Shown piece after piece: positions 25,081 to 60,620 of a stretch of 64,000 bases of DNA (position 1 is the first letter of the stretch; each line of letters starts with the position of its first letter). The notes under the pieces were generated by a model, which was not told where the DNA came from, did no database searches, and worked only from the letters and a program-made list of their open reading frames with translations. Origin of the DNA: Clostridia bacterium (lineage in GTDB: Bacteria; Bacillota; Clostridia; Oscillospirales; Acutalibacteraceae); NCBI GenBank assembly GCA_017452785.1, contig JAFTLT010000013.1:22468-86467 (forward strand). The letters are read 5' to 3'. A program made the translations under genes and the position numbers.

Positions 25081-27720
25081 ATGGGAAAGACAATGAAGAA
25101 AATTTTATGTACACTGCTTGTTGTGGTTATGTGTCTGACAAGTGCACCGCTTGGTGTTTTTTTGAGTTTAGATTTTAGAGCTGAAGCTACGGATTACAAG
25201 GTTGGTGATATTGTTCAGTTTGGCTCATATCCTCAGAGCAAGGTTAAAGACGAAGCCTTGGTTGCAGAACTAAATGCCCTTACACCTGAGTGGGAAGATT
25301 GGACAAGCTATGGTTATTATTCAGGTGAAGATGACTATGGCACAATGTTACAGGGCGACTGGATGAGATACACTGATATAGTTTACAACGGTAACAAATA
25401 CCGTGGTGTGAAGTTTACGCAGTACAGACATGCATTTCAAGATGTCAATGGTTACTATACCAACACAGTATATTGGTTTAAGTTTGAAAGTATTGATTGG
25501 CGTGTTCTTGACCCAAGCACTGGTCTTCTTATGTGTGAAACAATTATTGATTCTCAGCCATATAGCAATACAATCTATTACAACAGTAGCTATAGCTTTA
25601 TATATGCTTATTTCAACGATGCTTCATATAAAAACTATGCAAGTGATTACGAAACAAGCTCAATAAGAAAATGGCTAAATGATGATTTTTACAATACAGC
25701 CTTTACAGATAGAGAAAAGGAAGAGATAAGCACAACAACATTAAATAACGACGGTTATTATACATCAATTGGCACAACCGGCTACGAAGCACTTGACAGC
25801 AACGAAACAAGCGACAAAATCTTTCTCCTTTCATATAACGAAGCACGAAACAGCAATTATAGCTTTAGTTCAGATTGCAGCGATTGTGATACTGCTCGTC
25901 AAGCTGAGGGTAGTGACTACGCCAAGAGTCAGGGCCTTCATGTAAGTACGTTCGATTCCTCATACGGTTACTCAACTTGGTTGCTCCGTTCTTCGGAGTT
26001 CTGGTCGAGTGGTTGTTGCGTTGTCAGTGGATATGGCAACCTTGGTGGTGATAACGTCAATCAGACTTCTGTGGGTGTTCGACCTGCTTTGAGACTCAAT
26101 AGTATATCTGAAGAAATAATCGGACCTAATCAACCTAACAATCCAACCGAACCCGATAATCCCAATAATCCTGATAATCCCGATAACCCTGACACTCCAA
26201 ATAATCCTGATGATCCTAATAAACCTAACAATCCAACTGAACCCGATAATCCCAACAACCCTGATAATCCCAATGAACCTAACAAACCCAACGAAGAACC
26301 GGATGACCCTGAAGAAGACGATAATGATGAGTTTTATCATCCTGAAGTCTTAGAGCCGCGTATTGACTGTTATGATACATCAGTTGAATCTTATAAAAAT
26401 GCTTTTTTAGGTGGCGATTGGAATACCTTTAAAATAACAGGTGAAATCACAAATTATGATGAATATCATAACTTAGAAAATATATGGATAACTATAAAAT
26501 CGCCTGACGGAAATATCATAAAATTTGATAGTAACGAGAAAAATGAAGTAACTTTTCCTTTGGGTCGTTCAATAGGAACTCAAAAAAGTAGTGATTTTAA
26601 ATGTAAAGCTTATGTAAATAGGGATTATATGCCTGAAGGGGGTACCGATAATATTACACTTACATGTATACTAAATGGTGATATAAATGGTAAAAAAGTT
26701 GAAGGTATATATACAACTTTCAATGTTAAGGTTACGAACTTGAGTTATAAAGAAGATAAGCCAAAGAGAAACAAAACAGTACATGAACTGCTTGAGCAGA
26801 TGAGAGATTTAGTGCCTGCTTATGAATCCTATTATAGACAAAATATTGGTTACCTTGTTGCGGGTACCGGATTGACTTATGATATTTTAGCGGTTGAATC
26901 GGCGTATGGGTTAGGTGATATCGATAACGGCTTGAATTTAGCTAATATGGCTTATGATTTGAGCTTTTACCTCGCCGGAATCACTAATCCCACTCCGCAG
27001 GAATTTGGAGAACTGTTTCTTGACCAACTTTCTGCCAATACAGAAGGAGAGGTTGATAAGATAATAGACTATGTAACCAATAGACTAAGAAGTAACAGAT
27101 ATTTTAACGGATTTATAAAATGGTGTTGTGAAGAGTATGGTGTTGATGCAGGTGAATATGCAAAGTACAGCAACCATTGTCCCACAGATATTATAGTTAC
27201 CGACGAGTTCGGAGATGTTGTGTTAAAAATCATAAATGATAAAATTGTAATATGTGATGATTATGTTTCTGCATATGTATTTGAGGGTAATAAAACAATT
27301 TATTTGCCCACAAGCATTGAGCATGAAATTGAAATCATTGCAACCGATAACGGTAAAATGGATTACAGTGTAGAAACAGTTACTAAGCATGGTGAAAAAC
27401 GAGTTATAGAGTATAAAGATGTGTCTCTTATAAAGGATAAATCATATACTGCAACTGCACCGAGTGATAAATCAAGCAAAACAGATGTGTATAACCTTGT
27501 GACAGAAAACGGAACTGTGGTAAAAGCTGATAACGAACAAATTGTCCACACCTTCGACGGCTCAGAGTGCATCAATTGCGATTATGACAAAGCCGACGAA
27601 TGTGACTGTAAATGTCACACAGACCGTCCGTTTGCAAAATTCTTCTTTAAGATTAAGCTCTTCTTCTGGAAGCTCTTCAAGAAAAATCCTGTCTGCGATT
27701 GCGGCATGGAACATTATTAA
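25081..27720 (+). CDS. Secreted surface protein: DUF6273-like domain, Pro/Asn/Asp linker, C-terminal CxCxCH...CxCGxxHY module
   Basis: An 879-residue exported protein. Signal peptide about 1-36. Residues 38-345 resemble DUF6273 (KVGDIVQFGSYPQS; WRVLDPSTGLLMCE; SSIRKWLNDDFYNTAF; STWLLRSS; VGVRPALRLN), a domain of secreted gut Firmicutes proteins with lectin-like relatives. A linker of PDN/PNN repeats covers about 350-415. The rest (420-840) is not recognised and is more AT-rich at codon third positions. The end ECDCKCH, a short FF/K-rich hydrophobic stretch, and NPVCDCGMEHY is shared with three other proteins here. GGAGG ribosome site nine bases before the ATG; expressed through the RNA leader. 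Confidence 0.85.
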   Translation: MGKTMKKILCTLLVVVMCLTSAPLGVFLSLDFRAEATDYKVGDIVQFGSYPQSKVKDEALVAELNALTPEWEDWTSYGYYSGEDDYGTMLQGDWMRYTDIVYNGNKYRGVKFTQYRHAFQDVNGYYTNTVYWFKFESIDWRVLDPSTGLLMCETIIDSQPYSNTIYYNSSYSFIYAYFNDASYKNYASDYETSSIRKWLNDDFYNTAFTDREKEEISTTTLNNDGYYTSIGTTGYEALDSNETSDKIFLLSYNEARNSNYSFSSDCSDCDTARQAEGSDYAKSQGLHVSTFDSSYGYSTWLLRSSEFWSSGCCVVSGYGNLGGDNVNQTSVGVRPALRLNSISEEIIGPNQPNNPTEPDNPNNPDNPDNPDTPNNPDDPNKPNNPTEPDNPNNPDNPNEPNKPNEEPDDPEEDDNDEFYHPEVLEPRIDCYDTSVESYKNAFLGGDWNTFKITGEITNYDEYHNLENIWITIKSPDGNIIKFDSNEKNEVTFPLGRSIGTQKSSDFKCKAYVNRDYMPEGGTDNITLTCILNGDINGKKVEGIYTTFNVKVTNLSYKEDKPKRNKTVHELLEQMRDLVPAYESYYRQNIGYLVAGTGLTYDILAVESAYGLGDIDNGLNLANMAYDLSFYLAGITNPTPQEFGELFLDQLSANTEGEVDKIIDYVTNRLRSNRYFNGFIKWCCEEYGVDAGEYAKYSNHCPTDIIVTDEFGDVVLKIINDKIVICDDYVSAYVFEGNKTIYLPTSIEHEIEIIATDNGKMDYSVETVTKHGEKRVIEYKDVSLIKDKSYTATAPSDKSSKTDVYNLVTENGTVVKADNEQIVHTFDGSECINCDYDKADECDCKCHTDRPFAKFFFKIKLFFWKLFKKNPVCDCGMEHY

Positions 27721-27730
27721 AACAAATTTA

Positions 27731-27844
27731 GCCTTCCCCTACCGTAGGGGAAGGTGTCACGAAGTGACGGATGAGGTGAGAAAAGCGGTAATCCTCATCC
27801 GTCTGCCTGACGGCAGCCACCTTCCCCTTGCAAAAGGGGAAGGC
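27731..27844. repeat. Palindromic CCTTCCCCT repeat, copy 1
   Basis: GCCTTCCCCT...AGGGGAAGG, TGTCACGAAGTGACGGATGAGG, a variable centre, CCTCATCCGTCTGCCTGACGGCAGCC, then CCTTCCCCTTGCAAAAGGGGAAGGC. It can fold as a large hairpin with side stems. Two more copies are at 32597 and 32739. Confidence 0.9.
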
Positions 27845-27883
27845 ATAAAAACAGGGGGCAATTGACTGCTCCCTGTTTCGTTG

Positions 27884-28453: not shown

Positions 28454-28521
28454 TTTATTCACTCCTTCACAGAGTCTTTTTATTTATTTTAACACAAAAA
28501 CAGAAAATTTCAATTTCTATG

Positions 28522-28550
28522 TTGAATTTAATTAAAATATGTTGTAAAAT
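28522..28550 (+). promoter_or_regulatory. Sigma-A promoter of pduL-like gene
   Basis: TTGAAT (28522-28527), 17-base spacer, TAAAAT (28545-28550). Confidence 0.7.
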
Positions 28551-28593
28551 ATCCCTTGTAGATTATTATATTATTTTTTTGGAGGACAATAAT

Positions 28594-29166: not shown

Positions 29167-29183
29167 TCTTGCTTTTATGAAAC

Positions 29184-29214: not shown

Positions 29215-29240
29215 AATTATAAGTTTCGGAGTTTTTGTCA

Positions 29241-30608: not shown

Positions 30609-30609
30609 A

Positions 30610-32979: not shown

Positions 32980-33022
32980 TTTCTTTGCATTAAATTAAAA
33001 TAAACTATATGGAGGTATGTTT

Positions 33023-36000
33023 ATGAACAAAACAATCAAAAAAGCTCTCGCTCTTTGTCTTGCAGTCATAATGGTGCTCTCAGCAGCTCCTCTTGGCGGC
33101 TTTGTGGGCTTTGAGTGGGGCGTAACAGCAAGTGCTCTTGATGCAAGCGGCAACTGCGGTGAAAATGTAACCTACACCTTTGATAGCGAGACAGGTGAGC
33201 TTGTTATCAGTGGCGAGGGTGCGATTGAAGATTATGCATTTAATTACAATACTGAGATTAAGAGTGTTGTTATTAACGAGGGCGTGACAGCTATCGGTGA
33301 CTATGCATTTGCAAATTGCACACAGCTTGATAGCTTTGAAATCCCCAACGGCGTAATGTCAATTGGAAACAATATCCTTGCAAACACGGCTTGGCATTAC
33401 AATCAGTCCACAGGTCTGCTTGAGCTTGACAATTGGCTTTTAGGTTATAAAGGCACCATGCCTGACAATTATGTTCTTGAAATTGGTAAAGATATCAAGG
33501 GAATTGCAACAGAACTCATTTCAAGATGGGAAATTGTAAATTTCAATCTTGATGAAGATAATTCTTATTTTACATATGAAGATGGAGTGCTTTATAATAA
33601 GGACAAAACACTTCTTATAAGAAATTCTGTTCCGGATAGTTATTCTGAACTTATTATCCCTGAAACTGTAAAGATAATAGGAGAAAATGCTTTCCAAAGA
33701 AGTTACGGTAGAAGAGTTGTTTTGCCTGACAATCTTGAAATTATTGAAGAAAGTGCGTTCCAAAGTGCCGGTTTAACCAATCTTGATATTCCGATTTCGG
33801 TTAAAAGGCTCGGTGCAGGTTCTTTATATAATGTTTTAAATGTTTATTACCCGGGAACACTTGAACAGTGGCAGACTATCGAAGGTTCTGAAAGAGCAAT
33901 TGCAGATAACACCTCGCTTTTCCTTAATCATATTCATTCATATTCTGTGACAGTAAAAGAAGAAGCTACATGCACTTCAGATGGTTCAAAGCTTTACACA
34001 TGTAGCTATGGTGATAACTATACGGAAACAATTCCTTCAACAGGACATTTGTGGAGTGAATGGGAAACTAATATCTATGGTCAGCAAGTGAGAGCTTGTG
34101 CATCTTGTGGCGAAACAGAAACTCAAGGTGATATTGAAATTGGAAGTATAACAAATTTAACAGCCACCAACACAACTTGTAACACAATCACACTCGATTG
34201 GGATGATGTTGAGGGTGCAACAGGTTACGAAATCTATATAACATATGATGGGGAAAGTTCTTATTATCAAATAGCTACCACATATGAAAGTAATTTTGAG
34301 TTGACTGCTTTGACAAGTTATAATGTTGTTTCATTTAAAGTCAGAGCATATGCTGAAATAGGAATATATGGAGAAACTTATCGTGGTGAATTTACGGAAT
34401 TGGCAGATCATCAATACGGTCACACCTACACCACAGAGCTTATCCCTGCCACCACATCAAGTGACGGCTACGAAAGAGAATATTGCACCTCTTGCGGTGA
34501 TGAAAGAAACTATGATTTCATACCTTACATAATGAATGTTGAGCTTTCCTCTTCTACCGTTACCTATAATGGCGAAGTGAGAACACCAAGCATCAAGGCA
34601 AGAAACGCTCATTGGAATTATCTTACAGAAGGTGTTTCCTACGACTACGAATACCTTGACGGTGAAATGAAAGACCCCGGTGTTTACAGAGTAAAGGTTA
34701 CCTTCAAAGGCAGATATGCCGGTGAAGAAATACTTACCTTCACCATTCTTCCCGAAAGCACAGCTGATCTCACTGCTGAGGGCAGATATATAAGCGTTGA
34801 CCTTAACTGGTCAGATGTTGTGGGTGCTGATGTTTATAAGATTTATCAGTCTTTTAACGGCTCGCTTCATGAAATTGATACTGTTACCGACAGCAACTAC
34901 AGAGTCAAAGACCTTAACCCCGACAAGAGATACCGTTTTGCTGTTCAGGCAGGCACTAAAATTGGTGAAGATGAATATATATGGGGCAATAAAATTGCTG
35001 TATATGTCTACACTACTGATGTTCCGATGTGCGACCATGTTGACGAAAACGCTGACCGCATATGCGACATCTGCGAAGAAGAAACTCTCATTTTTGCAGG
35101 CAACCGCAACGGTACCGTTTATAAGCTCTATGATGACGGCACTCTTATCATCAGCGGTGAGGGCACAGCTTATTGCCGTTGGCAGAACTACAGAGAGAGT
35201 ATCAAGAGAGTTATTGTTGAAGAGGGCATAACAGCTCTCGGCACAGGCTGTCTTGCAATGTGTGTGAATATGGAAGAAGTTGAAATTCTTGAAGGTGCCT
35301 GTGTTATAGGCTGGTACGCATTTGACAACTGTCAGAAACTCTCAAAGGTTACCTTCAGTAACACGGTTGAAAAAATATATAGCTTTGCATTTGCAAATTG
35401 CTTCAGCCTTAACAATGTTGTCTTGCCTGAGTCACTCATTTCAATAGACGAATATGCATTCTACAGATGCCACGGTCTTACAAACATTGACCTTGGCGGT
35501 ACCGTCAGAATATCATATAACGCCTTTGAAGACTGTATAAGACTTGCCGAAATAACCCTCGGCGAAAATGTCAATTATATTGGAATAGATGCATTCAAAA
35601 ACTGCATAAGACTCAAGAAAGCTACAATAGAAAATCCAAATTGTGAAATTGAAAGCTATATCAATACTCTGCCGGAAAAAACAGTAATCTACGGTTATGA
35701 AGGTTCAACTGCAGAGAAATATGCAGATGATTGGCTTCGCAACTTTGTTTCACTCGGCGGAGCTCATAACCATAATTTTGATGAAACAATAACACTTGCT
35801 CCCACCTGCACAGATAAGGGTGTTATGACCTATTCATGTGCTTGCGGCAACAGCTACACAGAGGATATCGAAGCTCTCGGTCATAAAGAAGCTGCTCTCG
35901 AAGCAGTGGCTGCAACTTGCACCGTTGACGGCAAAACAGAAGGAAAAATTTGTGAGCGTTGCAAGACGATTCTTGTTGCACAGCAGACAATTCCTGCTAA

Positions 36001-36622
36001 TGGTCACAGCATGTCAGTTAGTGCTGAGCTTTCAATTGCAGCAACCTGCAAGCAGGCAGGCAAGAGTGTTTCAGTTTGTGCAAACTGTGACTACAAGACT
36101 GAAACAGAAATTCCCGCAGATGCAAATGCACATAAATTTGACTGGACAGAAGCTACTGCAACCTGCACAAACAAGGGCTCACGCACAGGCAAGTGCTCGG
36201 TTTGCGATAAAACAGAAACTCAGGAAATTGCTGCACTCGGTCACGACATTGCAGATGATGAATGGATTATTGTAAACGCTGCAACATGCAGCACACAGGG
36301 CGACAAGGTTGCTGTCTGCGGCCGCTGTGGCGGAACAATCAAAGAAAAGATTGCAACCACTGCCCACAAAGATGAAAACACCGATAATAAGTGTGATGTC
36401 TGCGGCGGTACTGTTAAGACTGAGACCCCCACAGAGCCCTCACAGCCAAGCGAACCTTCACAGCCCTCACAGCCTGATGTACCTGATACACCTGATGTGC
36501 AGGAATGTGATTGCAATTGCCACGCATCAGGCATAAAGAAGTTCTTCTTCAACTTTATTCTCTTCTTCCAGAAGCTCTTCGGAGCAAATGAAACCTGCGA
36601 ATGCGGAGAAGCTCATTATTAA
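33023..36622 (+). CDS. Secreted BspA-type leucine-rich repeat protein with FN3-like domains, Cys modules and C-terminal CxCxCH...CxCGxxHY
   Basis: A 1199-residue exported protein. Signal peptide about 1-37. BspA-like LRR_5 repeats lie at about 70-290 (VNEGVTAIGDYAFANCTQLDSF pattern) and 700-890 (TFSNTVEKIYSFAFANCFSL). Two fibronectin-III-like domains are near 370-455 and 575-665 (TITLDWDDVEGATGYEIYI; VDLNWSDVVGADVYKIY). Then come repeated Cys modules (PTCTDKGVMTYSCACGNSY; ATCTNKGSRTGKCSVCDK), a Ser/Pro/Gln linker, and the shared tail ECDCNCH ... NETCECGEAHY. The ATG at 33023 is seven bases after GGAGG; the ATG at 33017 is too close. Probable adhesin on the cell surface. AT-richer patches (33540-33960, 34130-34420) suggest domain shuffling. 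Confidence 0.88.
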   Translation: MNKTIKKALALCLAVIMVLSAAPLGGFVGFEWGVTASALDASGNCGENVTYTFDSETGELVISGEGAIEDYAFNYNTEIKSVVINEGVTAIGDYAFANCTQLDSFEIPNGVMSIGNNILANTAWHYNQSTGLLELDNWLLGYKGTMPDNYVLEIGKDIKGIATELISRWEIVNFNLDEDNSYFTYEDGVLYNKDKTLLIRNSVPDSYSELIIPETVKIIGENAFQRSYGRRVVLPDNLEIIEESAFQSAGLTNLDIPISVKRLGAGSLYNVLNVYYPGTLEQWQTIEGSERAIADNTSLFLNHIHSYSVTVKEEATCTSDGSKLYTCSYGDNYTETIPSTGHLWSEWETNIYGQQVRACASCGETETQGDIEIGSITNLTATNTTCNTITLDWDDVEGATGYEIYITYDGESSYYQIATTYESNFELTALTSYNVVSFKVRAYAEIGIYGETYRGEFTELADHQYGHTYTTELIPATTSSDGYEREYCTSCGDERNYDFIPYIMNVELSSSTVTYNGEVRTPSIKARNAHWNYLTEGVSYDYEYLDGEMKDPGVYRVKVTFKGRYAGEEILTFTILPESTADLTAEGRYISVDLNWSDVVGADVYKIYQSFNGSLHEIDTVTDSNYRVKDLNPDKRYRFAVQAGTKIGEDEYIWGNKIAVYVYTTDVPMCDHVDENADRICDICEEETLIFAGNRNGTVYKLYDDGTLIISGEGTAYCRWQNYRESIKRVIVEEGITALGTGCLAMCVNMEEVEILEGACVIGWYAFDNCQKLSKVTFSNTVEKIYSFAFANCFSLNNVVLPESLISIDEYAFYRCHGLTNIDLGGTVRISYNAFEDCIRLAEITLGENVNYIGIDAFKNCIRLKKATIENPNCEIESYINTLPEKTVIYGYEGSTAEKYADDWLRNFVSLGGAHNHNFDETITLAPTCTDKGVMTYSCACGNSYTEDIEALGHKEAALEAVAATCTVDGKTEGKICERCKTILVAQQTIPANGHSMSVSAELSIAATCKQAGKSVSVCANCDYKTETEIPADANAHKFDWTEATATCTNKGSRTGKCSVCDKTETQEIAALGHDIADDEWIIVNAATCSTQGDKVAVCGRCGGTIKEKIATTAHKDENTDNKCDVCGGTVKTETPTEPSQPSEPSQPSQPDVPDTPDVQECDCNCHASGIKKFFFNFILFFQKLFGANETCECGEAHY

Positions 36623-36632
36623 TTTAAAACTT

Positions 36633-36662
36633 AAAGCGGCGGGAAAAATCCTGCCGCTTTAT
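36633..36662 (+). terminator. Terminator after the LRR surface-protein gene
   Basis: AAAGCGGCGGG pairs with CCTGCCGCTTT; the T-tract is short. Confidence 0.75.
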
Positions 36663-36680
36663 CTATACTTCCCTGCGTAC

Positions 36681-36708
36681 AAAAAAGCGACCCAATACGG
36701 AGCCGCTT
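36681..36708 (-). terminator. Terminator of the QPPVYQQ membrane-protein gene
   Basis: On the minus strand AAGCGGCTC pairs with GGGTCGCTT and TTTTTT follows. Confidence 0.75.
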
Positions 36709-36723
36709 AAATTATTCACTTGT

Positions 36724-37362
36724 TTAAATGCCGAATGAGTCTGATTCGTAAATGTCATCAAGGTCGAGGCCGGGAATTGTCTGTGAAGGCTGTTGTTGGG
36801 GCTGAGTCTGCTGAGGTGCCTGATACTGCTGCTGATAAACAGGGGGTTGAGTGAATACAGGCGGCTGATAGACGGGAGTTTGATAAACAGGCTGCTGATA
36901 AACAGGGGGCTGATACATAACCGGCTGCTGAGGCTGCTGCTTATGCTTGAATTCATTGGGAACATCAATGGGCTTATCGTCAATGAGCTGCTGCAAGAGC
37001 TTTACTGCTTCGGCAAGACCGCCTAAAATTGTGGCAAAAATTATGCCACAGATAACTATGAGTACTGAATAGAAAAATCCGTTTTCGGCTGAGAGAACAT
37101 AAAAGAGAAATGCGCCTATGATGCTAAAAATAATAGTTACTATTGAAACTATGTTAAGCAGCACTGCAACACCGTTTCTGCTTGAAAGGCCGTTGCTTGC
37201 CTTAACAAGAGCATCATACTCCTCATCACTGACTATAATGGGTGGCTCGCCTTTTTTTGCCGTAAGTCCCCATATTTCAAGATCTGATTCTTTCTTTTTA
37301 TAATACTGCTCGGCTTTCTTTTTATTAAGCTCCTGCAGCTTGTTTTCAACCTGATTTAACAT
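36724..37362 (-). CDS. Membrane protein with Gln/Pro/Tyr-rich repeat tail
   Basis: A 212-residue protein. A charged N-terminal coiled region (about 1-55; LQELNKKKAEQYYKKKESD), two membrane helices (about 65-90 and 96-117), then a cytoplasmic tail (about 140-195) with repeats of QPPVYQ/TPVYQ, ending in an acidic DLDDIYESDSFGI. Low-complexity Q/P/Y tails like this act as interaction hubs in various bacterial membrane proteins; the function here is unknown. Ribosome site GAAAGGAAGAAAG. It is monocistronic. Confidence 0.72.
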   Translation of the reverse strand: MLNQVENKLQELNKKKAEQYYKKKESDLEIWGLTAKKGEPPIIVSDEEYDALVKASNGLSSRNGVAVLLNIVSIVTIIFSIIGAFLFYVLSAENGFFYSVLIVICGIIFATILGGLAEAVKLLQQLIDDKPIDVPNEFKHKQQPQQPVMYQPPVYQQPVYQTPVYQPPVFTQPPVYQQQYQAPQQTQPQQQPSQTIPGLDLDDIYESDSFGI

Positions 37363-37506
37363 AATCTTTCTTCCTTTCAGAGAAAATATATAAATAGCTT
37401 ATCATAATTCGCAAAATACTTCAATAGTTTATAAGAAAAAAAGATAGCTTGATATTATCATCAATATGTTGTATAATCAATTAAACAGTATAAAAGGAGA
37501 AATAAT

Positions 37507-38340
37507 ATGAAAAAGAAAAAACTCTTGAAAGCGATAGCGGTTTTGCTCGTCTTAGCACTTGCTGTTGTGGGCATTATGTTTGCAGGTGACCTTTTCAGTA
37601 CTCTGCCGAGTGCTCTTATGATATCCTCTCACACTGATTCTGCTCCCACACTCGTGGCTCACAGAGGCCTTTCCTCAATTTATCCTCAGAACACAATACC
37701 CGCTTTTGAGGGCGCAGCGCAGTACGGCTTCAGCTATTATGAGCTTGATGTACATACAACAAAAGACGGTGAGTGGGTTGTTATCCATGACGATACAGTT
37801 AACGCTATGACAAACGGCGAAGGCGAGGTTGAGTCCTTCACACTTGAGGAAATAAGAGGGCTCTCCATTGATGGCGGTAACGGCATAGAAAACCACGAGG
37901 GACTTATTGTACCCACTCTCAGTGAAAGCCTTGATGTCTGTGAAGAGACAGGCATACTCCCCGTAATTGAGCTGAAAAAGTGCGATGTGCAGTATCTGCC
38001 CGACTTAATTGAAATGCTTGAAGATTACGGTCTTAGCAAGACAGCAAAGATAATCTCCTTTGATAAGGGTTATCTCGAAGAGTACCGCAAGTTGGACAGC
38101 GAGATAGATATACTCTATCTTGCAAATGATCCGTCGGTTGAAGATATTGACTGGTGCATTGCAAATAATTTCGGAATTAACTTCAATCACGGCAACCTTT
38201 ATAAATGTCTCGATGCAATACGCTATGCAAAAAAGCAGGGCGTTACAATTGCGGCATGGACAGTTGACAACACAATTTTTGCCGATATAATGGTGCTTTT
38301 CGGTGCTGAATATATCACAACAAATAAGATTTTACCTTAA
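37507..38340 (+). CDS. Glycerophosphodiester phosphodiesterase, membrane-anchored
   Basis: A 277-residue GDPD. One N-terminal membrane anchor (about 5-27) precedes the catalytic TIM barrel: VAHRGLSSIYPQNTIPAFEGA (His-Arg pair and Glu metal ligand), YYELDVHTTKDGEWVVIHDDTV (Glu/Asp ligand and second His) and VIELKK. It hydrolyses deacylated phospholipids to glycerol-3-phosphate and an alcohol; here outside the membrane. It starts an operon with a sugar nucleotidyltransferase (20 bases apart) and an acetyltransferase, so a role in lipoteichoic acid or glycerol-containing polymers is possible (inference). Confidence 0.9.
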   Translation: MKKKKLLKAIAVLLVLALAVVGIMFAGDLFSTLPSALMISSHTDSAPTLVAHRGLSSIYPQNTIPAFEGAAQYGFSYYELDVHTTKDGEWVVIHDDTVNAMTNGEGEVESFTLEEIRGLSIDGGNGIENHEGLIVPTLSESLDVCEETGILPVIELKKCDVQYLPDLIEMLEDYGLSKTAKIISFDKGYLEEYRKLDSEIDILYLANDPSVEDIDWCIANNFGINFNHGNLYKCLDAIRYAKKQGVTIAAWTVDNTIFADIMVLFGAEYITTNKILP

Positions 38341-38360
38341 GAAATCAAGAGGTGAGAAAA

Positions 38361-50947: not shown

Positions 50948-51009
50948 ACATAATAACAGCACTTCGGTGGAAGCCCGAAGAAATAAACAAAGACTTCTTT
51001 GAAATTTCT

Positions 51010-51052
51010 CGTCGTCCCTGAAAGGGGAGATGTCCGAAGGACAGAGGGGTCA
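51010..51052. repeat. Palindromic repeat piece in the 51086 leader
   Basis: TCGTCCCTGAAAGGGGAGATGTCCG... AGGACAGAGGGGTC; inverse of part of 24614-24770. Confidence 0.65.
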
Positions 51053-51085
51053 AAACCACTTTATTTAAGGGGGATATTAAAGAAA

Positions 51086-54000
51086 ATGAAAAAGACTAAT
51101 TTTAAAAAAGCTCTGTCATTATTTATGGCAGTCATGATGCTCTTGACCTGTTGGGTGTTTATTGCACCTGAAAAGGCAGAGGCGGCAGCAGGCGACTATA
51201 CTGTTAGAGTTCGTGTGCAAAACAAAAATGCAGCTGATGGTGGTCAAGCAAAACTTATTGTTAAATATAAACCGAAAAACGGTACCGGTACGGAAACATC
51301 TACTGAAGTTGATATTACATCAGAGATGTCAAGTAATGAGGGTAGCAACATAACCAAGGATTTCACTCTTTCGGGTTTTCCAACGTCTGTGCAGCTTGCA
51401 TGTATAGGTACGCAAGGTTTCACCTATGATAGTGTTGAAGGCGTTCTCAATGGTATCTTTGTCGGAAGTTCTTCATCTAACCTTACTCAGGTTTGGGGTG
51501 TAAATAGCGCGGATTCAAATACTTCGGGCAACTACTACTCTATCAAAGGCTCCGGTGGATGGGGTTCCGTTTCTTGGCAGTATTCAACAACTGCTTATAT
51601 GGGTGACGGACTTGCAGGCTCAAAGAATTGGACCGAGCCGGCTGTATATACTGTAGGTACCGCACTTTCTGATGCTTCACTTACAGTTCCAAAGGGCGGT
51701 AGCGCTGTTTCAAAAGCATATACTGTTGCTTTTAAAGATCAGTACGGTGTTGACTGGATTGCGGGTGGATATACTTGCTCTATCACTCCTTCCACAATCG
51801 GAACTGACTCTGCTGCAGGTTCGCTTACATATGACGGCAGTCAGAAGGTAACGGTCAGTTTTAAAGAAAAAGCCTTTTCTTACATAAATGGTTACGACTC
51901 AGGAACCGGAGAAGGTACTGTAACATTAAAGGTTACTTGCGGTAAAGGATCAACTGAAGCAACTATAACTTTGCAGTCATCAAAGTATTACGTATACTTC
52001 CAGGATGCAGTAGATAAACACGAAACATGGTGTTACTACAACGGTTCTGTAACTGCTCCTGATAAGGGCTGTGCAAAGCCTGCTGATGAAACCGCTCACT
52101 ATGCATTTGAAAAGTGGAATGACAACATTCTTTCAAACATTACTGCTGACAAGACAGTTACCAGCACATACACATCAATTGCTCATACCTTCACAGGAGA
52201 CATCCAGGATAACCCTGACCTTACACACTCACGTATGTGTACCGGTACAGGCGCTGATGAACCATGTACTTTCTACGGCCTGAACGGTGTTACATATGGT
52301 TCCGTTTCATGTCTTGACACTCCGACATGGACAGGCGGCGACGACAGTGCTCATAACGGTGTATGTAGTGAATGTGGCAACAACTTGACTCACTACCCTG
52401 ATACTAGCAATTTGTGGGTAGAGGTTGTTGATGAAAAGTACCTTGCGAGCGAACCCGACTGTACAAATCCTGCAGTTTATTATATGAGCTGTAAAACTTG
52501 CGGTCAGGCAAGCACAAAGCATACTTTCACATATGGCGATGAAATGGGTCACAGCTTTGTTGTTATCGATCACACAGATCCCACTTGTACAGAAAGAGGT
52601 TATGACACATACGGTTGTGAAGTTTGTCATGTTGAAAGCCTTAACTACAATGTATATGAAAACGATGCAGGCGAAGACCTTTATCCTGCAGCACACTCAT
52701 GGCACTATCTCACAGAAGATATCGGCAACGGTACACACGGTAAGAAGTGTACAGTCTGCGGTGAGTGGAACCCTGACACTATTGAAAAGCATAACTACAA
52801 TCAGGCAGGTATCGTTTCAAGAGCCGATTGTACAAATGATCAGGTTTACAACTTCCGTTGCGGCGGTTGCGGTATAACAACTTCAAGCAAATATGCATTC
52901 GATTCAGAAACAAGAGAATTCACAACAGAAATCATCACTCCTGCACTCGGTCACAGCTGGGTAAAGGTTGTTGACGATGCTCATCCCGAAGTAGCTCCCA
53001 GATGTAACGCTGCGGGTTCATATTGGGAACAGTGCTCACGCTGTAAGATTTATGAGCAGAGAACAGTTGCTGCTGATCCCGACGCTCATAAGTGGACAGC
53101 TGCAACACCGGTCGAAAACGATCAGCACTCCGCAACTTGTGAATATTGCGGCAAGACTGACATAACAGATTGCGTTGACGAAGATAAGAACTGCGTCTGC
53201 GATATCTGCGGCGATGCTATTGCACACAAGGTTGTTGAAGTAATCAATGAAAAATATCTCGTAACTCCTGCTGACTGTCTCAACTATGCAGTTTACTATA
53301 AGAGCTGTTCAGTTTGCGGCGTGGCACTCGATGATACATTTATTGACGACAGCGCATACGGTGCACACAGCTGGGTAAAAACAGAGACAGACGAATTCCT
53401 TAAGGATGCTGCAGCTTGCGAAAAGAATGCAGTTTACTACTATGAATGTTCACTCTGCGGCGCATCAAGCAAAGATGTTGACGGCTCAACATGGGAAAGC
53501 GAAGGCACAGCTCTCGTTCACAACTATGCTGCTAAGGATGATAACTCAAACATCGTAAACAACGGTGACGGCACTCACTCATACTACTGTCAGAACGGCT
53601 GCGGTACTACCGGCGGCACAACAGGCTGTAATTACGGTGCTTGGGATACAACCAACGCAAACGGTCACCAGAAGACCTGTCTTGATTGCGGTTACACAAC
53701 TGTTCTTGAAGCTCATAAGTGGGCTGAAGACGGCAGCGAAGGCTGGAAACCCGCAGAGGGCAACACAGGCTCAGCAGCAGGTCAGATGACAAGAACCTGT
53801 CTTATCTGTTCACGCGTTGAAACAACTGCTTGCGTATACGATAAGGAAGTAGTTGTTGATGCAACATGTCTTAACGATAAGTATACAGAATATACATGTA
53901 CAGCTTGCGGTCACGGTTACACAGTAATCGAAGCAAACACAAGACTCGACCACAGCTACACAGGCGAATATGATATCGACGCTGAAAACGATCAGCACAG

Positions 54001-57000
54001 ACAGCTTTGCGTAAACGGCTGTAAAGAATATGGCGAATGGGTTGGCTGCACTCTCGAATATACTCAGATTGCAGGCACAGAAACTCACACAGCAACTTGC
54101 CCCGATTGCGGCAATGTTGACGAAGGCGATTGCTCAGGCGGTAAGGCTACATGTATCCAGAAGGCAAAGTGCGATAAGTGCGGCGGCGACCACGGCGACT
54201 ACGCACCTCACGATTTCACAGGCACAGCAGTTAATGTTGTTGACGGCACAATGAATGCAGACGGCACATATGCAGTAGGCACACATTGGTACAACTGTTC
54301 AACAGACGGTTGCGGTGAATACGGTGTTGGCACAGAAATTGGTAAAACTGAAGAATGCACAGGCGGAACAGCATACTGCACAGAGCAGGCACTTTGTGAA
54401 GCTTGCGGCAATCCTCACGGTCCTCTCGATGCTAACAACCATAAGAATACAACAGCTCAGCCCGGTAAAGCTCCCACATGTATGGAAGCAGGTTACACAG
54501 AATATAAGACTTGTGATGCTTGTGGCACAGAGCTTGGCAAGGAAGTAATTCCCGCAGATCCCGATGCTCATAAGTGGAGCACAACAGCAACTTCAACAAA
54601 TGACGGCAAGCACTACTACGCTTGTGAATATAACGAAGACCATAAGGATGTATACGATTGCGTATGCACAGATCCCTCAATTCTTCCTCCCACATGTACC
54701 GAAGGCGGTTACACAGAGCACTATTGTGATGAATGTAACTACTACTGGACAACAGAGCCCACAGAACCTATAGGTCACGCTTGGGGCGAATGGCAGAAGG
54801 ATGACAAGGGCGGTCACTACAGAATCTGTTCAAACGATGTAAACCACATTGACACAGGCATCTGTGCTGAAGACGCTTCATCAGTTGTAACAGCTCCCAC
54901 ATGTACAGAACAGGGCTATACAACATACACATGTAACATTTGCGGTTATGTCTGGGTATCAGATTACACAGATCCCACAGGTCACCACTACACTCAGAAG
55001 ATCATTGATACAGATCATCTGTTTACTGACGCTGACTATGAAGCAACCGGCGTAACAACAAGTGCTTGTGAACGTGCTGACTATTATTGGTTCGATTGTA
55101 AGGATTGCGATAAGAACGGTAAGGATGAAACAGATACAGATAAGTATCCTCTTAACACACGTTATTATGAAAACGGTAAGGGTGAAGGACATGACTTCAC
55201 CGGTAAGGCTTACAGCGAAGGCGTTAAGGATAAGTTAGTTCTTGCTTCACCTGCAACCTGCACAGATAACGAAGTATACTACACATACTGTAAGGTTTGT
55301 CACCTTTCAACAAAGGGCACAGATGTTGAGGCTACCTTCACACGTTGGGGTACTGCGCTCGACCACTCATATGAAAACATCGTTGATGAAGACAATCTCG
55401 CCAAGAACCGTGTATCAGTTGCTACATGTACTGAAAAGGCAGTTTACTATAAGTCATGTAAGAACTGCGGCGAAGTAAGCGAAAACACATTCACATACGG
55501 TGAAATGACAGCTCACGTTTACTCAGAAAAGATTGCAGACTACGCTCACATTATCACTGAAGCTAATTGCGAAACAAAGGCAACTTATTGGTACGACTGT
55601 AAGAACTGTAACTCAAATGCTAAGCTTATTGAAAAGGATGGCATGACAGAGGCAGAAATTGAAGCTCTTCAGTATTCAGACGGTTCTCTTGACAGCAACA
55701 ACCACGTTTCACTTGAAAAGGTTCCCTATAAGGCTCCCTCATGTAGTGAAGACGGTCACAGCGAATATAAGAAGTGCGCTGCTTGTAAGGCTGAAATCGG
55801 CAAGGTAACTAAGGGTTACGAAAAGACCGGTCACTCATACACAGGCGAATACAGAATTGCAAATGTTGTTGACGCTGACGGTAATGTAACAACCTATAAG
55901 CATCAGAGAGCTTGTAAGTACGGTTGCGGCACATACAGTGATGCAGCAGAATGCGGATTCAGCGCATGGAAGCAGAACGCTGACGGCAAGACTCATACAA
56001 TGGCTTGTGTTTGCGGCAACAGCATCACAAAGAACTGTGTAGCAAACGACAATGCAAGCTGTGAAGATGCAGCAACCTGTAAGGATTGCGGCGGCGAAAT
56101 GGCTGACACAATTACAGGCCACGATTGGGGCGAGTGGAAGTCAGACGAAAACGGCAAGACTCACTCAAGAGTTTGTAAGACTAACTCAAAGCATGTTGAA
56201 ACAGAAAACTGTGCCGGTGGTGTAGCATCAGGCTGCGGCGCTATCTATTGCTCAGTTTGTTCACAGCAGTATGCAACAGGTGTTGGCCACAACTGGGGCA
56301 CATGGGTTGAAATTTCAGCTGCAACATGTGAAGAACCCGCTGTTCGCAAGAGAGCATGTCAGGCTTGCTCAGCAACAGAGGAAGAGTCATACGGCGAAGC
56401 ACTCGGTCACGATTATGACAAGGATAACGACGGCAAGGACGACGGCGTTGTAACTAAGGAAGCAACTTGCACAGAAGCAGGTATCATCACATACACATGT
56501 CTTAACAATTGCGGCTCAACATACACAGATGTTATCAAGTCACTCGGCCATGACCTTGCAGACGAATGGACAATTACTGTTGAACCCACATGTAAGGACG
56601 AAGGTATTCAGGTTAAGAAGTGCACACATTCATGGAAAGACGCTGACGGCAAAGAAGTTAAGTGTGACTACTATGAAGAAATGACTATCCCTGCTGACAA
56701 GTCAAAGCACGTTGCAGGCGAATGGGTAGCTGACGACAGCGCTTCAAACTGCGAGACAGGTCTCAAGTCATATAAGTACTGCACAGTCTGCGGACTTAAG
56801 GTTGACGAAAAGACTGAGCAGATCAGCCACGATTGGGTAGCAGATTCAATCGTTTACGGCACATGTACTGCTAACGGTTATATCAAGATGGTTTGTGCTA
56901 AGTGCGGCTCAGCAAAGGTATTTGATGAGAACACACCGGGCTTCCCCAACAAGATGGACGACACAGTTATCGATGGCGAAACAGCATCCAAGCTCCTCAG

Positions 57001-57505
57001 CAAGGGTGGCCATAAGTGGGAAACATCAACATCAAGCTCAAACGCTTATGTAATTCAGGATGGTTATGTTGTTTATGTTAAGGAAGCAGCAACCTGCTCA
57101 AAGACAGGTAAGGGTTATATGATTTGTACTGCAGCAGACTGCGGTGCTCAGAGCTCAGTAGTTGCAATTAACAAGACAGCTCATAACCTTAAGACAATGC
57201 CTGCTTCAGAGGCAACATGTCAGACTCCCGGTCATACATCATATTTAGCTTGCAGAAATTGCCCATATGCTGAAGAACCTACAAAGATTCCTAAGCTCGG
57301 CCATGCTGATACAAACGCAAACGGCAAGTGCGACAGATGCGGCTTTGAAATGTATGAACCCGATAACGGCGGCACAGCAGCATGCGGTTGTCTGTGTCAC
57401 GACACAAGCTTCTTCATGGCTAAGATCATTTATCCGATAGCACGCTTCTTCTGGAAGATATTCGGAATGAACAAGACATGTAGCTGCGGTAACAAGCACT
57501 ATTAA
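51086..57505 (+). CDS. Giant secreted Cys-rich repeat protein with C-terminal CxCxCH...CxCGxxHY module
   Basis: A 2139-residue exported protein, the largest here. Signal peptide about 1-34 (ends AEAAAGDY). N-terminal beta domains (about 35-300), an InlB-repeat-like strand set (YAFEKWNDNILSNITADKTVT, near 340), then about 1700 residues of irregular modules, each with one or two CxxC or CxxxC pairs, the phrase PTCTExGYTxYxCxxCG and a GH/AH dipeptide. More than 30 Cys pairs can be counted by eye. It ends ACGCLCH ... NKTCSCGNKHY. The frame opens at 50999 but only the ATG at 51086 (AAGGGGGAT) starts a signal peptide. Highly biased codons suggest strong expression. Function unknown; metal binding or adhesion are possible. 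Confidence 0.85.
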   Translation: MKKTNFKKALSLFMAVMMLLTCWVFIAPEKAEAAAGDYTVRVRVQNKNAADGGQAKLIVKYKPKNGTGTETSTEVDITSEMSSNEGSNITKDFTLSGFPTSVQLACIGTQGFTYDSVEGVLNGIFVGSSSSNLTQVWGVNSADSNTSGNYYSIKGSGGWGSVSWQYSTTAYMGDGLAGSKNWTEPAVYTVGTALSDASLTVPKGGSAVSKAYTVAFKDQYGVDWIAGGYTCSITPSTIGTDSAAGSLTYDGSQKVTVSFKEKAFSYINGYDSGTGEGTVTLKVTCGKGSTEATITLQSSKYYVYFQDAVDKHETWCYYNGSVTAPDKGCAKPADETAHYAFEKWNDNILSNITADKTVTSTYTSIAHTFTGDIQDNPDLTHSRMCTGTGADEPCTFYGLNGVTYGSVSCLDTPTWTGGDDSAHNGVCSECGNNLTHYPDTSNLWVEVVDEKYLASEPDCTNPAVYYMSCKTCGQASTKHTFTYGDEMGHSFVVIDHTDPTCTERGYDTYGCEVCHVESLNYNVYENDAGEDLYPAAHSWHYLTEDIGNGTHGKKCTVCGEWNPDTIEKHNYNQAGIVSRADCTNDQVYNFRCGGCGITTSSKYAFDSETREFTTEIITPALGHSWVKVVDDAHPEVAPRCNAAGSYWEQCSRCKIYEQRTVAADPDAHKWTAATPVENDQHSATCEYCGKTDITDCVDEDKNCVCDICGDAIAHKVVEVINEKYLVTPADCLNYAVYYKSCSVCGVALDDTFIDDSAYGAHSWVKTETDEFLKDAAACEKNAVYYYECSLCGASSKDVDGSTWESEGTALVHNYAAKDDNSNIVNNGDGTHSYYCQNGCGTTGGTTGCNYGAWDTTNANGHQKTCLDCGYTTVLEAHKWAEDGSEGWKPAEGNTGSAAGQMTRTCLICSRVETTACVYDKEVVVDATCLNDKYTEYTCTACGHGYTVIEANTRLDHSYTGEYDIDAENDQHRQLCVNGCKEYGEWVGCTLEYTQIAGTETHTATCPDCGNVDEGDCSGGKATCIQKAKCDKCGGDHGDYAPHDFTGTAVNVVDGTMNADGTYAVGTHWYNCSTDGCGEYGVGTEIGKTEECTGGTAYCTEQALCEACGNPHGPLDANNHKNTTAQPGKAPTCMEAGYTEYKTCDACGTELGKEVIPADPDAHKWSTTATSTNDGKHYYACEYNEDHKDVYDCVCTDPSILPPTCTEGGYTEHYCDECNYYWTTEPTEPIGHAWGEWQKDDKGGHYRICSNDVNHIDTGICAEDASSVVTAPTCTEQGYTTYTCNICGYVWVSDYTDPTGHHYTQKIIDTDHLFTDADYEATGVTTSACERADYYWFDCKDCDKNGKDETDTDKYPLNTRYYENGKGEGHDFTGKAYSEGVKDKLVLASPATCTDNEVYYTYCKVCHLSTKGTDVEATFTRWGTALDHSYENIVDEDNLAKNRVSVATCTEKAVYYKSCKNCGEVSENTFTYGEMTAHVYSEKIADYAHIITEANCETKATYWYDCKNCNSNAKLIEKDGMTEAEIEALQYSDGSLDSNNHVSLEKVPYKAPSCSEDGHSEYKKCAACKAEIGKVTKGYEKTGHSYTGEYRIANVVDADGNVTTYKHQRACKYGCGTYSDAAECGFSAWKQNADGKTHTMACVCGNSITKNCVANDNASCEDAATCKDCGGEMADTITGHDWGEWKSDENGKTHSRVCKTNSKHVETENCAGGVASGCGAIYCSVCSQQYATGVGHNWGTWVEISAATCEEPAVRKRACQACSATEEESYGEALGHDYDKDNDGKDDGVVTKEATCTEAGIITYTCLNNCGSTYTDVIKSLGHDLADEWTITVEPTCKDEGIQVKKCTHSWKDADGKEVKCDYYEEMTIPADKSKHVAGEWVADDSASNCETGLKSYKYCTVCGLKVDEKTEQISHDWVADSIVYGTCTANGYIKMVCAKCGSAKVFDENTPGFPNKMDDTVIDGETASKLLSKGGHKWETSTSSSNAYVIQDGYVVYVKEAATCSKTGKGYMICTAADCGAQSSVVAINKTAHNLKTMPASEATCQTPGHTSYLACRNCPYAEEPTKIPKLGHADTNANGKCDRCGFEMYEPDNGGTAACGCLCHDTSFFMAKIIYPIARFFWKIFGMNKTCSCGNKHY

Positions 57506-57533
57506 TCTAAAAGTTTTAACTGAATAGATTATC

Positions 57534-57571
57534 CCTTCCCTTCACTTTAAAAGTGGAGGGAAGGTTTTTTA
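57534..57571 (+). terminator. Terminator after the giant Cys-rich gene
   Basis: CCTTCCCTTCACTTT pairs with AAAGTGGAGGGAAGG, followed by TTTTTT. Confidence 0.95.
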
Positions 57572-57601
57572 TTAAAAAGTTATATTTTTTAATAGTAAAT
57601 G

Positions 57602-57630
57602 TTGACGATTTAAAAAAATAATGGTATTAT
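57602..57630 (+). promoter_or_regulatory. Sigma-A promoter of the 57684 gene
   Basis: TTGACG (57602-57607), 17-base spacer, TATTAT (57625-57630). Confidence 0.78.
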
Positions 57631-57683
57631 TATGATGTATATTTGTGTAATAATCGGAATTTTGATTTCGGAGGTAAGATACC

Positions 57684-60620
57684 ATGAAAATGAACAGAAA
57701 ACTTAAAAAGACATTATCATTGCTTCTCTGTGTTCTCATGGCTTTTTCAACTGTCAGCTTCGCTGTGGGTGCTTCTCCCGCTGTTGAGAGAGTGTCAAAC
57801 ATTGAGATGTATGATGAGGCTGACGGACATGCCCATGTTTACGGTGAATGGGTTGTAACCAAAGCTGCAACTTGTTCTCAGCAGGGCGAAAAGGTCAGAT
57901 ACTGTGCTGTTGATGGCTGTGATGCACACTACACAAGAACCATTGCAATTGTTGAAAATGCTCATACCTATGACAGTTGGAAAACAACAATTGAAGCTAC
58001 TTGTGAAACTGTTGGCAGCATGACCGCTGTTTGTACTCAGTCAGGCTGTGGCCATAAAGAGACAAGAGCAATCAAAAAGCTTGAGCACACAATTCCCGAA
58101 ATGTACTTAGCTGACGGTACCCTTAACCCTGAGTGGAAGATAAGCGTTGAGCCCGTTCACGGTGAAGGCTTTGTTACTCAGATAGGTTATGTCAGAGCAA
58201 GCTGCGCTATCTGCGGCACAACTATAACCAACGAATACTATGGCAATAAGGACGCTGCCGGTAACTATATCGGTTGGCACGAAATGTCAGGTACCGTATC
58301 AACAATCAGACCTGCTACTTGCACAACTCCCGGTGTAGGTATGGATAAGTGCGTCATCTGTGGTGACACTGTAAGTGTTGAACTCAAAACACAGGCAGAT
58401 GCTCATGTTTATTCAGGTCTTCCCATTGTTACAACACCTGCAACATGTGTTGCTGAGGGTAAAGGTCGTAACCAGTGTACAGAGTGCAACAAGGTATTTG
58501 ACGTTGTAATCGAAAAAGATCCTGACACTCATGTTGATGCAAGCGGCAAGGCTCTTGATTGGGTTGTAACTAAAGATGCATTCTATCATATGGACGGTGT
58601 GGAGTCAGTTAACTGCGCTGAGCACGGAACACAGTCAAGAACAATATACGGTGATCACGGTCTCACTGATGAAGACTTTAAGGTTATTGCTAACCCCACT
58701 TGCGTTAAGCCCGGTCTTATGATTGCTGAGTGTGATAACTGCAACAAAACAATCGAAAAAGAAATTCCTGTTGATAATGCTCATTCATGGGGTGAAGCTG
58801 AAATTCTTTGTCTTCCCACCTGCGCTCAGGAAGGAATTCAAGTAAGACATTGCGGTCGTCACTATGGACATGTTCTTTATGAAACCACCGAAAAGACTGA
58901 CCACGTTTTCTCAAAGCCTTGGGTTACAGAGGTTGAAGCTGACTGTAATAATGCAGGTAGAGAGTCAAATGAATGCGTTGAATGTACTCAGATTGTTAAG
59001 AGAGTAATTCCTATAATTGAAGATGCACACGATTTTGTTGATGACAACGGTGTTAAGCATGACTGGACAGTAGTGACTGAACCCACCTGCACATCTACCG
59101 GTACAAAAACAAACTATTGCTATGAGTGTAATAAGACAATCACAAAGGAAATTCCCTTGCATGCAAACACTCTCATAGAAGTCAGCCGTAAAGAGGCTTC
59201 ATGCACATTTGAAGGCGAAATCTTCTATGAATGTAAGCTTTGTGCTGCAGACGTTTATGAGGCAATTCCCATTGATGAGGATGCACATAAGTATATCGGC
59301 GAGCCCGCAGTTTACATAGCTCCCACATGTCAGGAACCCGGTGTAGGTCTTACTGTATGTGCATATTGTAATAAGGAATGCAATACAATTCTTCCCGTTG
59401 ACCCTGAAGCACATGTTGATGCCGACAGAAACATTCTTGAGTGGAGTGTTCTTAAGGCAGCATCCGGTTGCACAAACGGCATTGAAAAGGTTGATTGCTA
59501 CTATTGCGGCACAAAGACAAAAACACTTTATTCAACTCACGGTATGAGTGACGGTATGTTTAATGTGTCTGTTGTTGCTTCATGTGATAAAGAAGGCCTT
59601 AAGAAGTCAAAGTATAAGTGTCCTGATTGTAACAGCTATGTATATATACCCATTCCTGCAGCTCACAGCGGTATTCTTTCAAAAGTAGTTATAGAAGCAA
59701 CTTGCACAGAAGACGGACTTGCACTTTATAACTGCGGCAAGGGTGACCATCTTTACTATGAAATTATCCCTGCAAAGGGCCACGTAGCAGCTGATGAATA
59801 TGTTATTCTTTCAGAACCTACTTGCACAACTGAGGGTGAAAAGCAGCTCAAGTGTAAGGTTTGTAATGTAGATATTCAGCCTCCCGAAAAGATTCCTCAG
59901 TCACACGTTTACACAGCATGGGTTGTTGAGCCCGGTAAGGAAGCAACCTGTAAGGCTCCCGGTGAGCGCTACAGAGGTTGTCAGGATTGCGACTATTATG
60001 AAAAGACACCTTACGGTGTTGAGCATACTCCCGGTGAATGGACATATGCTAAGGGTTATGACTGCACAACCGGCGGTACTCTTTATAAATTCTGCACAAC
60101 CTGTAATTTACAGCTTGCAACAAAGCAGGTTGCAGCCGGCACACACGGTTCAACAAGAACAGAAACTGTAAAGGCAACAAACGAATATTGCATCAGCACA
60201 AAGGTTGTCTGTAACGTTTGTGAAAATACAGTTTCAGAGACAAAGAATAGCCATAAGAGCTATGTCATAAAAGGCATGGAGGGCTGGGCAGCTACTTGTG
60301 AAGACTTTGGTATGACAGACGGTGTTCTTTGCATGGTATGCGGCTATCAGACAAAGCAGGAGGTTATCCCCGCATTCGGACATAAATGGGGTTGGGATGA
60401 CAACGGCAACAGAGTTTGTATCACCTGCGGCGACTATAAGGTTGCTCCCGATGAAGGCGGCACTTTAGAGCCTGATTATGACGGCGGTTGCAAGTGTTTC
60501 TGCCATGATAAGGGCATGATTGCAAAGATACTTTACAAGGTTTGCGTTTTCTTCTGGAAGCTTCTTAAGATAAATCAGAAGTGCGATTGCGGCACAGTTC
60601 ACTGGACTGCAGAAGAATAA
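57684..60620 (+). CDS. Secreted Cys-rich repeat protein with C-terminal CxCxCH...CxCGxxHW module
   Basis: A 978-residue exported protein and paralogue in style of the preceding gene. Signal peptide about 1-30 (KKTLSLLLCVLMAFSTVSFA). No separate N-terminal domain: the Cys modules start near residue 50 (VTKAATCSQQGEKVRYCAVDGCD) and continue to about 900, around 20 Cys pairs in all (PTCTSTGTKTNYCYECNKTI; ATCKAPGERYRGCQDCDYY). The tail is GCKCFCH ... NQKCDCGTVHWTAEE, with four residues after the usual final aromatic. CGGAGGTAAG ribosome site and its own promoter and terminator. Confidence 0.87.
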   Translation: MKMNRKLKKTLSLLLCVLMAFSTVSFAVGASPAVERVSNIEMYDEADGHAHVYGEWVVTKAATCSQQGEKVRYCAVDGCDAHYTRTIAIVENAHTYDSWKTTIEATCETVGSMTAVCTQSGCGHKETRAIKKLEHTIPEMYLADGTLNPEWKISVEPVHGEGFVTQIGYVRASCAICGTTITNEYYGNKDAAGNYIGWHEMSGTVSTIRPATCTTPGVGMDKCVICGDTVSVELKTQADAHVYSGLPIVTTPATCVAEGKGRNQCTECNKVFDVVIEKDPDTHVDASGKALDWVVTKDAFYHMDGVESVNCAEHGTQSRTIYGDHGLTDEDFKVIANPTCVKPGLMIAECDNCNKTIEKEIPVDNAHSWGEAEILCLPTCAQEGIQVRHCGRHYGHVLYETTEKTDHVFSKPWVTEVEADCNNAGRESNECVECTQIVKRVIPIIEDAHDFVDDNGVKHDWTVVTEPTCTSTGTKTNYCYECNKTITKEIPLHANTLIEVSRKEASCTFEGEIFYECKLCAADVYEAIPIDEDAHKYIGEPAVYIAPTCQEPGVGLTVCAYCNKECNTILPVDPEAHVDADRNILEWSVLKAASGCTNGIEKVDCYYCGTKTKTLYSTHGMSDGMFNVSVVASCDKEGLKKSKYKCPDCNSYVYIPIPAAHSGILSKVVIEATCTEDGLALYNCGKGDHLYYEIIPAKGHVAADEYVILSEPTCTTEGEKQLKCKVCNVDIQPPEKIPQSHVYTAWVVEPGKEATCKAPGERYRGCQDCDYYEKTPYGVEHTPGEWTYAKGYDCTTGGTLYKFCTTCNLQLATKQVAAGTHGSTRTETVKATNEYCISTKVVCNVCENTVSETKNSHKSYVIKGMEGWAATCEDFGMTDGVLCMVCGYQTKQEVIPAFGHKWGWDDNGNRVCITCGDYKVAPDEGGTLEPDYDGGCKCFCHDKGMIAKILYKVCVFFWKLLKINQKCDCGTVHWTAEE

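Follow-up and report, generated by a model that had tools for sequence, protein, structure and literature searches.

A two-knuckle C-terminal module on dissimilar exported proteins of Acutalibacteraceae is a candidate surface anchor

We asked why four large proteins with unlike bodies, encoded close together in one Clostridia genome, should end in almost the same way. The genes lie in a 64,000-nucleotide stretch of a contig from a member of the family Acutalibacteraceae (hereafter the window), and a note made earlier from its sequence had claimed that the four tails are alike. Translations, alignment and profile searches bear this out: all four proteins end in a common module of about 41 residues, consisting of a first knuckle (C-x-[C/H]-x-C-H), a cationic amphipathic helix and a second knuckle (C-x-C-G-x-x-H-[Y/W]), with 13 of 43 columns invariant when the four tails are aligned. 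In protein 1 (ORF 25081-27720, 879 aa, on the plus strand, as are the other three) the module occupies 27592..27717 and matches the own-genome profile (G000:C11:50059-50184) at E 1e-23. Within it lie the first knuckle, CDCKCH (27601..27618), the helix (27628..27675, tail residues 13-28), placed by AlphaFold2 and by hydrophobic moment, and the second knuckle (27694..27714). Protein 1 begins MGKTMKKILCTLLVVVMCLTSAPLG, a signal peptide by our heuristic (25081..25190, end approximate), and has a DUF6273 domain at 25633..26100 (PF19789, E 7.7e-22, residues 185-340). The module lies at 36497..36619 in protein 2 (ORF 33017-36622, 1201 aa, LRR_5 and fn3 body; E 1.5e-21), at 57374..57502 in protein 3 (ORF 50999-57505; E 2.2e-23) and, followed by TAEE, at 60480..60617 in protein 4 (ORF 57684-60620, 978 aa; E 2.0e-23); the bodies of proteins 3 and 4 are Cys-rich repeats in which no significant Pfam domain was detected. 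The first knuckles read ECDCKCH, ECDCNCH, ACGCLCH and GCKCFCH. As had also been claimed, the module stands at or near the protein end in all four, TAEE being four extra residues in the fourth. Of the start positions given earlier, 33023 is the second ATG of protein 2, the first being at 33017, whereas the ATG at 51086 remains the likelier start of protein 3, whose frame opens at 50999 with TTG.

We found no model in Pfam or NCBIfam covering the tail region of the four proteins, no Pfam or NCBIfam family match covering the module in a set of 86 non-redundant tails, and no PDB sequence that matches it; a known Pfam or TIGRFAM domain, an outcome that would have counted against the earlier note, was thus not encountered. 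Models for LPXTG, SLH and dockerin likewise had no match in the four proteins (Pfam and NCBIfam, E up to 1), in agreement with what had been said of them.

To count copies in the same genome (2.44 Mb), we searched it with a profile of the four window tails, which gave 19 full-length matches at E <=1.2e-10 and two contig-end fragments. One full-length match, on a 5.7-kb contig (G000:C68) that reflects assembly redundancy, is a 99.98% duplicate of window 33298-38958, and the fragments, on C42 and C50, are contig-end copies of the C27 tail; hence the genome has 18 distinct full modules, and the open frames that carry them are 443 to 3835 residues long. A profile of these 18 tails found the module in other genomes of the family at E values down to 8.5e-23. 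Together, the matches within and outside the genome place the similarity far beyond chance. We then compared five of the tailed genes (that of the window LRR protein, those on C46 and C4, and two on C22) at the DNA level. Their likeness does not extend beyond the final ~120 bases ahead of the stop codon, where identity is 35-100% per 20-base bin, mostly at least 55%; on either side it declines towards background. We conclude that the module is a discrete cassette on different proteins. Three weaker variants in the same genome (C26, C56 and C38) end in related but altered knuckles. The C38 variant (L243), a DUF6273 protein, ends in CCCDDCGRPVH and then, up to the stop, a hydrophobic and probably helical segment, as if the knuckles had been rearranged and the second one lost.

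We collected further tails from genomes of the family and from a second scan that gave 55 loci, all from metagenome-assembled genomes; record titles of these 55, for which family membership is not established, name a ruminant wherever an animal is named. From both sources we read 106 distinct full tails, none in a frame that runs off its locus. All 106 end 0-10 residues after the last His (1 residue in 88, none in 7, 3-10 in 11), with a single full copy in each frame that was read and no copy in mid-protein, as the earlier note required of a C-terminal module. Six partial or altered copies (L085, L100, L101, L110, L134 and L135) were left out of this count, and all of them lie <=19 residues from the frame end. 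A group of IQQYCDCG-type tails from several genomes (L078, L105, L108, L111, L130, L131 and L167, with IHQ in L108 and VQQ in L131) continues for a few residues beyond the module, for example with DAPVFG or DAPFVDLGL, and L079, whose tail is of a different type, ends in a similar way.

Six Cys/His residues (C4, C8, H9, C35, C37 and H41) are invariant in the 86 non-redundant tails, and G38 is present in at least 90%. The third position of the first knuckle is Cys in 44 and His in 62 of the 106 tails, so the knuckle motif proposed earlier holds for the second knuckle and has to be widened for the first, where Cys alone had been given. Exchange of Cys for His at one position is typical of metal ligands, and the tails thus combine two marks of a zinc-knuckle-type site, invariant Cys/His ligands and Cys/His exchange. 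The two knuckles are mostly 24-25 residues apart.

The carriers appear to be exported. Using a simple heuristic, we detected a signal-peptide-like start from an ATG in 79 of 88 carriers whose 5' end is in view, compared with 179 of 824 neighbouring frames at equal settings (another count of neighbours, with a narrower start range, gave 170 of 896). Most carriers with a visible start thus have a predicted signal peptide, as the earlier note would expect. Among the remaining nine carriers, five have a signal-peptide-like start from GTG, one (L170) has such a stretch but no clear start codon, and three look cut at the start. Their bodies are diverse. When 64 of the 88 carriers were aligned (excluded were carriers of greater length, some near-duplicates, a carrier that lacks an ATG, and the window proteins), the only invariant columns were the six Cys/His of the tail, as expected if the tail alone is common to all. 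The bodies of these 64 include LRR_5 (22), Metallophos (4), 5'-nucleotidase C-terminal domain (3), CotH (2), DUF6273 (2) and C-type lectin (2), among others, and CHAP and GDSL lipase also occur among the surface-type bodies.

Between the knuckles, the earlier note had seen a hydrophobic stretch. Such a stretch is present, not as a typical membrane-spanning segment but as a predicted helix with a Lys/Arg stripe. Its 18-residue core has a mean net charge of +2.8 and a charge of at least +2 in 77 of 86 tails, and its mean hydrophobic moment is 2.6 standard deviations above that of shuffled sequences; in a profile averaged over 77 tails the moment peaks at 100 degrees (10-degree steps). On a helical wheel of the consensus, Lys, Arg and Gly fall in one narrow stripe along a broad face of aromatic and aliphatic residues. 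AlphaFold2, given the 86-tail alignment, predicted a helix at residues 13-28 (mean pLDDT 82.3) in a model of moderate confidence (pTM 0.49), with bridge residues at 34 and 40 that would fit a hairpin at the second knuckle. One tail (L103, in G905) has a charged, poorly hydrophobic helix while keeping its knuckles, and its protein has an apparent N-terminal membrane segment; hence not every copy can serve to bind the membrane.

We reasoned that these properties could belong to a surface-retention device standing in for other anchors, and a metal-clamped C-terminal membrane anchor lying in the plane of the membrane is the reading we favour, with about an even chance. A tailed protein would be exported via Sec, and its tail would fold into a cationic amphipathic helix and lie flat on the cytoplasmic membrane, in the plane of its outer face. 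With its broad Phe/Trp/Ile/Leu face the helix would sink into the lipid and with its narrow Lys/Arg stripe it would touch acidic headgroups, while the two Cys/His knuckles would bind metal, most likely zinc, and so hold both ends of the helix, and the exact C-terminus, in place. In this way adhesin-like and enzymatic bodies would be kept on the cell without sortase. The reading draws on the common sequence, the C-terminal position, the signal peptides, the helix periodicity, the Cys/His exchange and the presence of other anchors on several relatives. The metal-clamped surface anchor suggested in the earlier note fits all of these, including the sortase-type signals on tail-less relatives described below; from them we infer metal binding, membrane binding and retention. 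A bolder form of the proposal, which we regard as tentative and rather doubtful, is that the anchor is metal-gated and is encoded by a ~120-nucleotide cassette copied onto many exported proteins, standing in for sortase, a device that would be new for Gram-positives. Once the metal was lost, the ends of the helix would come loose and the protein would be set free, so that surface display would be zinc-responsive.

If the tail stands in for other anchors, relatives of a tailed protein that lack it might end in one of those. We searched 120 family genomes with the body of a tailed 5'-nucleotidase and obtained 19 loci in 18 genomes, one of which (L196) has the tail. Seven of the 19 end in a sortase-type signal, that is, a TG motif, a hydrophobic segment and a basic end (L197, L200, L205, L206, L207, L209 and L212), three in a hydrophobic segment and a basic end (L210, L211 and L213), and five, judged by eye, in neither type of anchor (L199 and L201-L204), a point against the proposal; three are unreadable at the C-terminus (L198, L208 and L214). 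L200 ends HKDDDNDGKCDTCG...SKTGD-hydrophobic-RKK, whereas its tailed relative L196 has a similar HIDDNSDEICDLCG and then the module. DUF6273 relatives, tried as a second comparison of this kind, were uninformative, as they mostly end near the domain or their loci are cut.

We also searched 48 tail-less genomes with a profile of the helix only. Weak matches (E 0.01 to 1) were found in 27 of them, but many of these matches lie in short frames and appear to be due to chance. Twenty matches were fetched (all 14 of G788, four of eight in G781 and both in G782), of which 17 lie <=34 residues from the stop codon, including 13 of the 14 in G788. Thus, in the tail-less genome G788 at least 13 proteins end in a similar amphipathic helix without knuckles, with ends like GFFDKLIAFFKGLFGLLP, and two other members of its genus (g489) have the full module. 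Judging from these sequences, the C-terminal amphipathic helix may have come first or be the more widespread element, to which the knuckles were added as an elaboration.

The best rival to the membrane anchor is a docking module, a possibility that we consider real though on the improbable side, in which the metal-knuckled helix binds a common surface receptor, or two copies pair, so that a shared structure is built at the surface; for example, two copies could form an antiparallel dimer in which each one's knuckles complete the metal site of the other. Lipid binding alone would not require the degree of conservation seen in both knuckles and the last residues, and the poorly hydrophobic L103 tail still has its knuckles. 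Moreover, the nearest neighbour of a tail in sequence is in the same genome for 28 of 106 tails, against a shuffled mean of 5.8 and a maximum of 16, as would be seen if tails co-evolved with a receptor, although cassette copying would simply give the same. However, no candidate receptor recurs beside the tails: when 896 neighbouring frames were clustered, the widest clusters, a secreted LRR-like protein (by eye) and ABC transporters, span only 8 and 7 of up to 39 genome labels, which argues against any specific neighbouring partner gene. The knuckle-less helices of G788, at the same C-terminal place, indicate that the helix seems to be the core of the element.

The earlier note had also offered a sorting signal with a partner enzyme. 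In the form considered here, a sortase- or exosortase-like enzyme would cleave the tail and attach the protein to the wall or a lipid. Like PEP-CTERM, the tail is short, C-terminal, present on many signal-peptide proteins of one genome and absent from some close relatives, yet we consider this reading unlikely. Sortase (PF04203) is found in all 41 family genomes compared, 11 tailed and 30 tail-less, unlike what would be expected of an LPXTG-type system, with sortase present where the signal is and absent where it is not. Neither sortase counts (p 0.21) nor LPXTG counts (p 0.17) differ significantly between tailed and tail-less genomes, so that a genome-wide replacement of sortase signals is without support; within the tailed genomes, tail count and sortase count give a rho of -0.58 (p 0.06). 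The window's own genome has one TIGR01167 (LPXTG) match, at E 0.006, compared with 18 distinct tails. A partner enzyme was found neither through sortase in the 41 family genomes nor among the 896 neighbouring frames. The tail lacks a long segment that could span the membrane, as well as a cluster of basic residues at its end, and conservation is strong past the hydrophobic stretch, the extreme C-terminus being among the most conserved parts; a cleaved signal is less likely because this is the part that would be discarded. That the cationic stripe and the aromatics bind a polymer of the wall, either peptidoglycan or a secondary polysaccharide, is very unlikely. The tail does have cationic and aromatic residues and sits at the C-terminus of surface-type bodies (LRR_5, C-type lectin, 5'-nucleotidase, CotH, CHAP and GDSL lipase), but wall-binding modules are generally larger, with beta or repeat folds, a helix whose broad face is hydrophobic would hardly be wall-exposed, and each protein read has a single full copy.

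The module is confined to part of one family as sampled. At E <=1e-6 we detected it in 37 of 398 family genomes, across 11 of 135 genera, and all seven own-genus genomes shown in the family survey carry it; 341 genomes of the family gave no match. In samples from the order (295 genomes), class (391) and phylum (398), which overlap with the family and in which the best 18-25 candidates per genome were scored, so that divergent copies could be missed, no convincing copy was found except in the window's own genome. Eight weak matches in the class and phylum samples (E 1.4e-4 to 0.007) were rejected as fragments of 17-27 model positions. Thus, the tail is a lineage-restricted and patchily kept trait in these samples.

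For mobile elements, we found no plasmid match for one typed tail and no relative in viral contigs with the window's fourth protein or six tails as queries. Among phage records, one tail matched one record and another tail matched none. The record (PV036458.1, an Oscillospirales phage, Ca. Heliusvirales, with source given as human feces; L305 is its segment 55172-75312) has two tail proteins at its very end (L305, 9081-20141). Its last 13,844 bases are 100% identical to the MAG contig of L078, and hence it is not an independent occurrence; the tail genes in it may be prophage cargo or a boundary overshoot. Several tail genes of different genomes (L305:15714-16504, L111, L180, L106 and L140) are preceded by a stretch of 700-800 bases, about 80% alike between them, that holds a frame for a TetR-family regulator (PF00440 in L111 and L305), which suggests a regulated cassette.

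Predictions of surface proteins in uncultured gut bacteria usually start from signals for sortase, lipoproteins, SLH or wall binding. By these, the tailed proteins of a genome with 18 distinct tails and one weak LPXTG match would pass as released into the medium. Should the tail act as an anchor, much of that genome's surface proteome has so far been missed. The tail would also be a compact, portable anchor candidate of about 41 residues, and its family model is one that Pfam and NCBIfam do not have. A literature search gave no text match for the motif or tail strings, none for combined anchor terms and no title on this tail, and the main text of a surface-display review, as far as available to us, does not contain 'amphipathic', 'amphiphilic' or 'zinc' (PMC5817068).

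Several known systems resemble the tail in part. The LPXTG signal (TIGR01167) is likewise C-terminal on different surface proteins; it consists of a TG motif, a hydrophobic segment of ~20 residues and a basic end, whereas the tail has none of these and carries metal-type knuckles. PEP-CTERM (PMC1569441) is a short C-terminal homology domain with many copies in some genomes and none in relatives, and both the PEP-CTERM/exosortase and GlyGly-CTERM/rhombosortase systems share with the tail its shortness, C-terminal position and high copy number in some genomes. In place of the PEP-CTERM motif, spanning helix and basic cluster, however, the tail has a helix with a Lys/Arg stripe and ends C-x-C-G-x-x-H-Y, and it differs from both systems in lacking a basic end and in having conserved residues at the extreme terminus.

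The knuckles and the helix each have a parallel of their own. The metal ligands of SEC-C are a C-terminal C-x-C plus an adjacent C-H or C-C, within a very short stretch as in the tail; ligand order and spacing differ, and none of 86 tails matched SEC-C (PF02810, Pfam), for which the SecA of the window served as a positive control. This SecA (40365-43121), which ends in the SEC-C zinc motif, lies between tailed genes. Phenol-soluble modulins are cationic amphipathic helices like that of the tail, but are free short peptides without knuckles; the weak match of a PSM epsilon model to 4 of 86 tails (best E 0.003) probably reflects helix composition only. A functional parallel may be the anchor of the E. 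coli D,D-carboxypeptidase PBP5, an amphipathic C-terminal helix of an exported protein, which the tail also has by computation and prediction. We propose that the tail would work like this helix, as described in part of PMC2909392, by analogy, homology between the two being without support: by database matches, as opposed to direct alignment, no tail has a Pfam, NCBIfam or PDB match to the PBP5 family. The passages of PMC2909392 available to us describe the PBP5 anchor from one enzyme family and do not mention Cys/His knuckles, whereas the tail has two knuckles and is carried by many different bodies.
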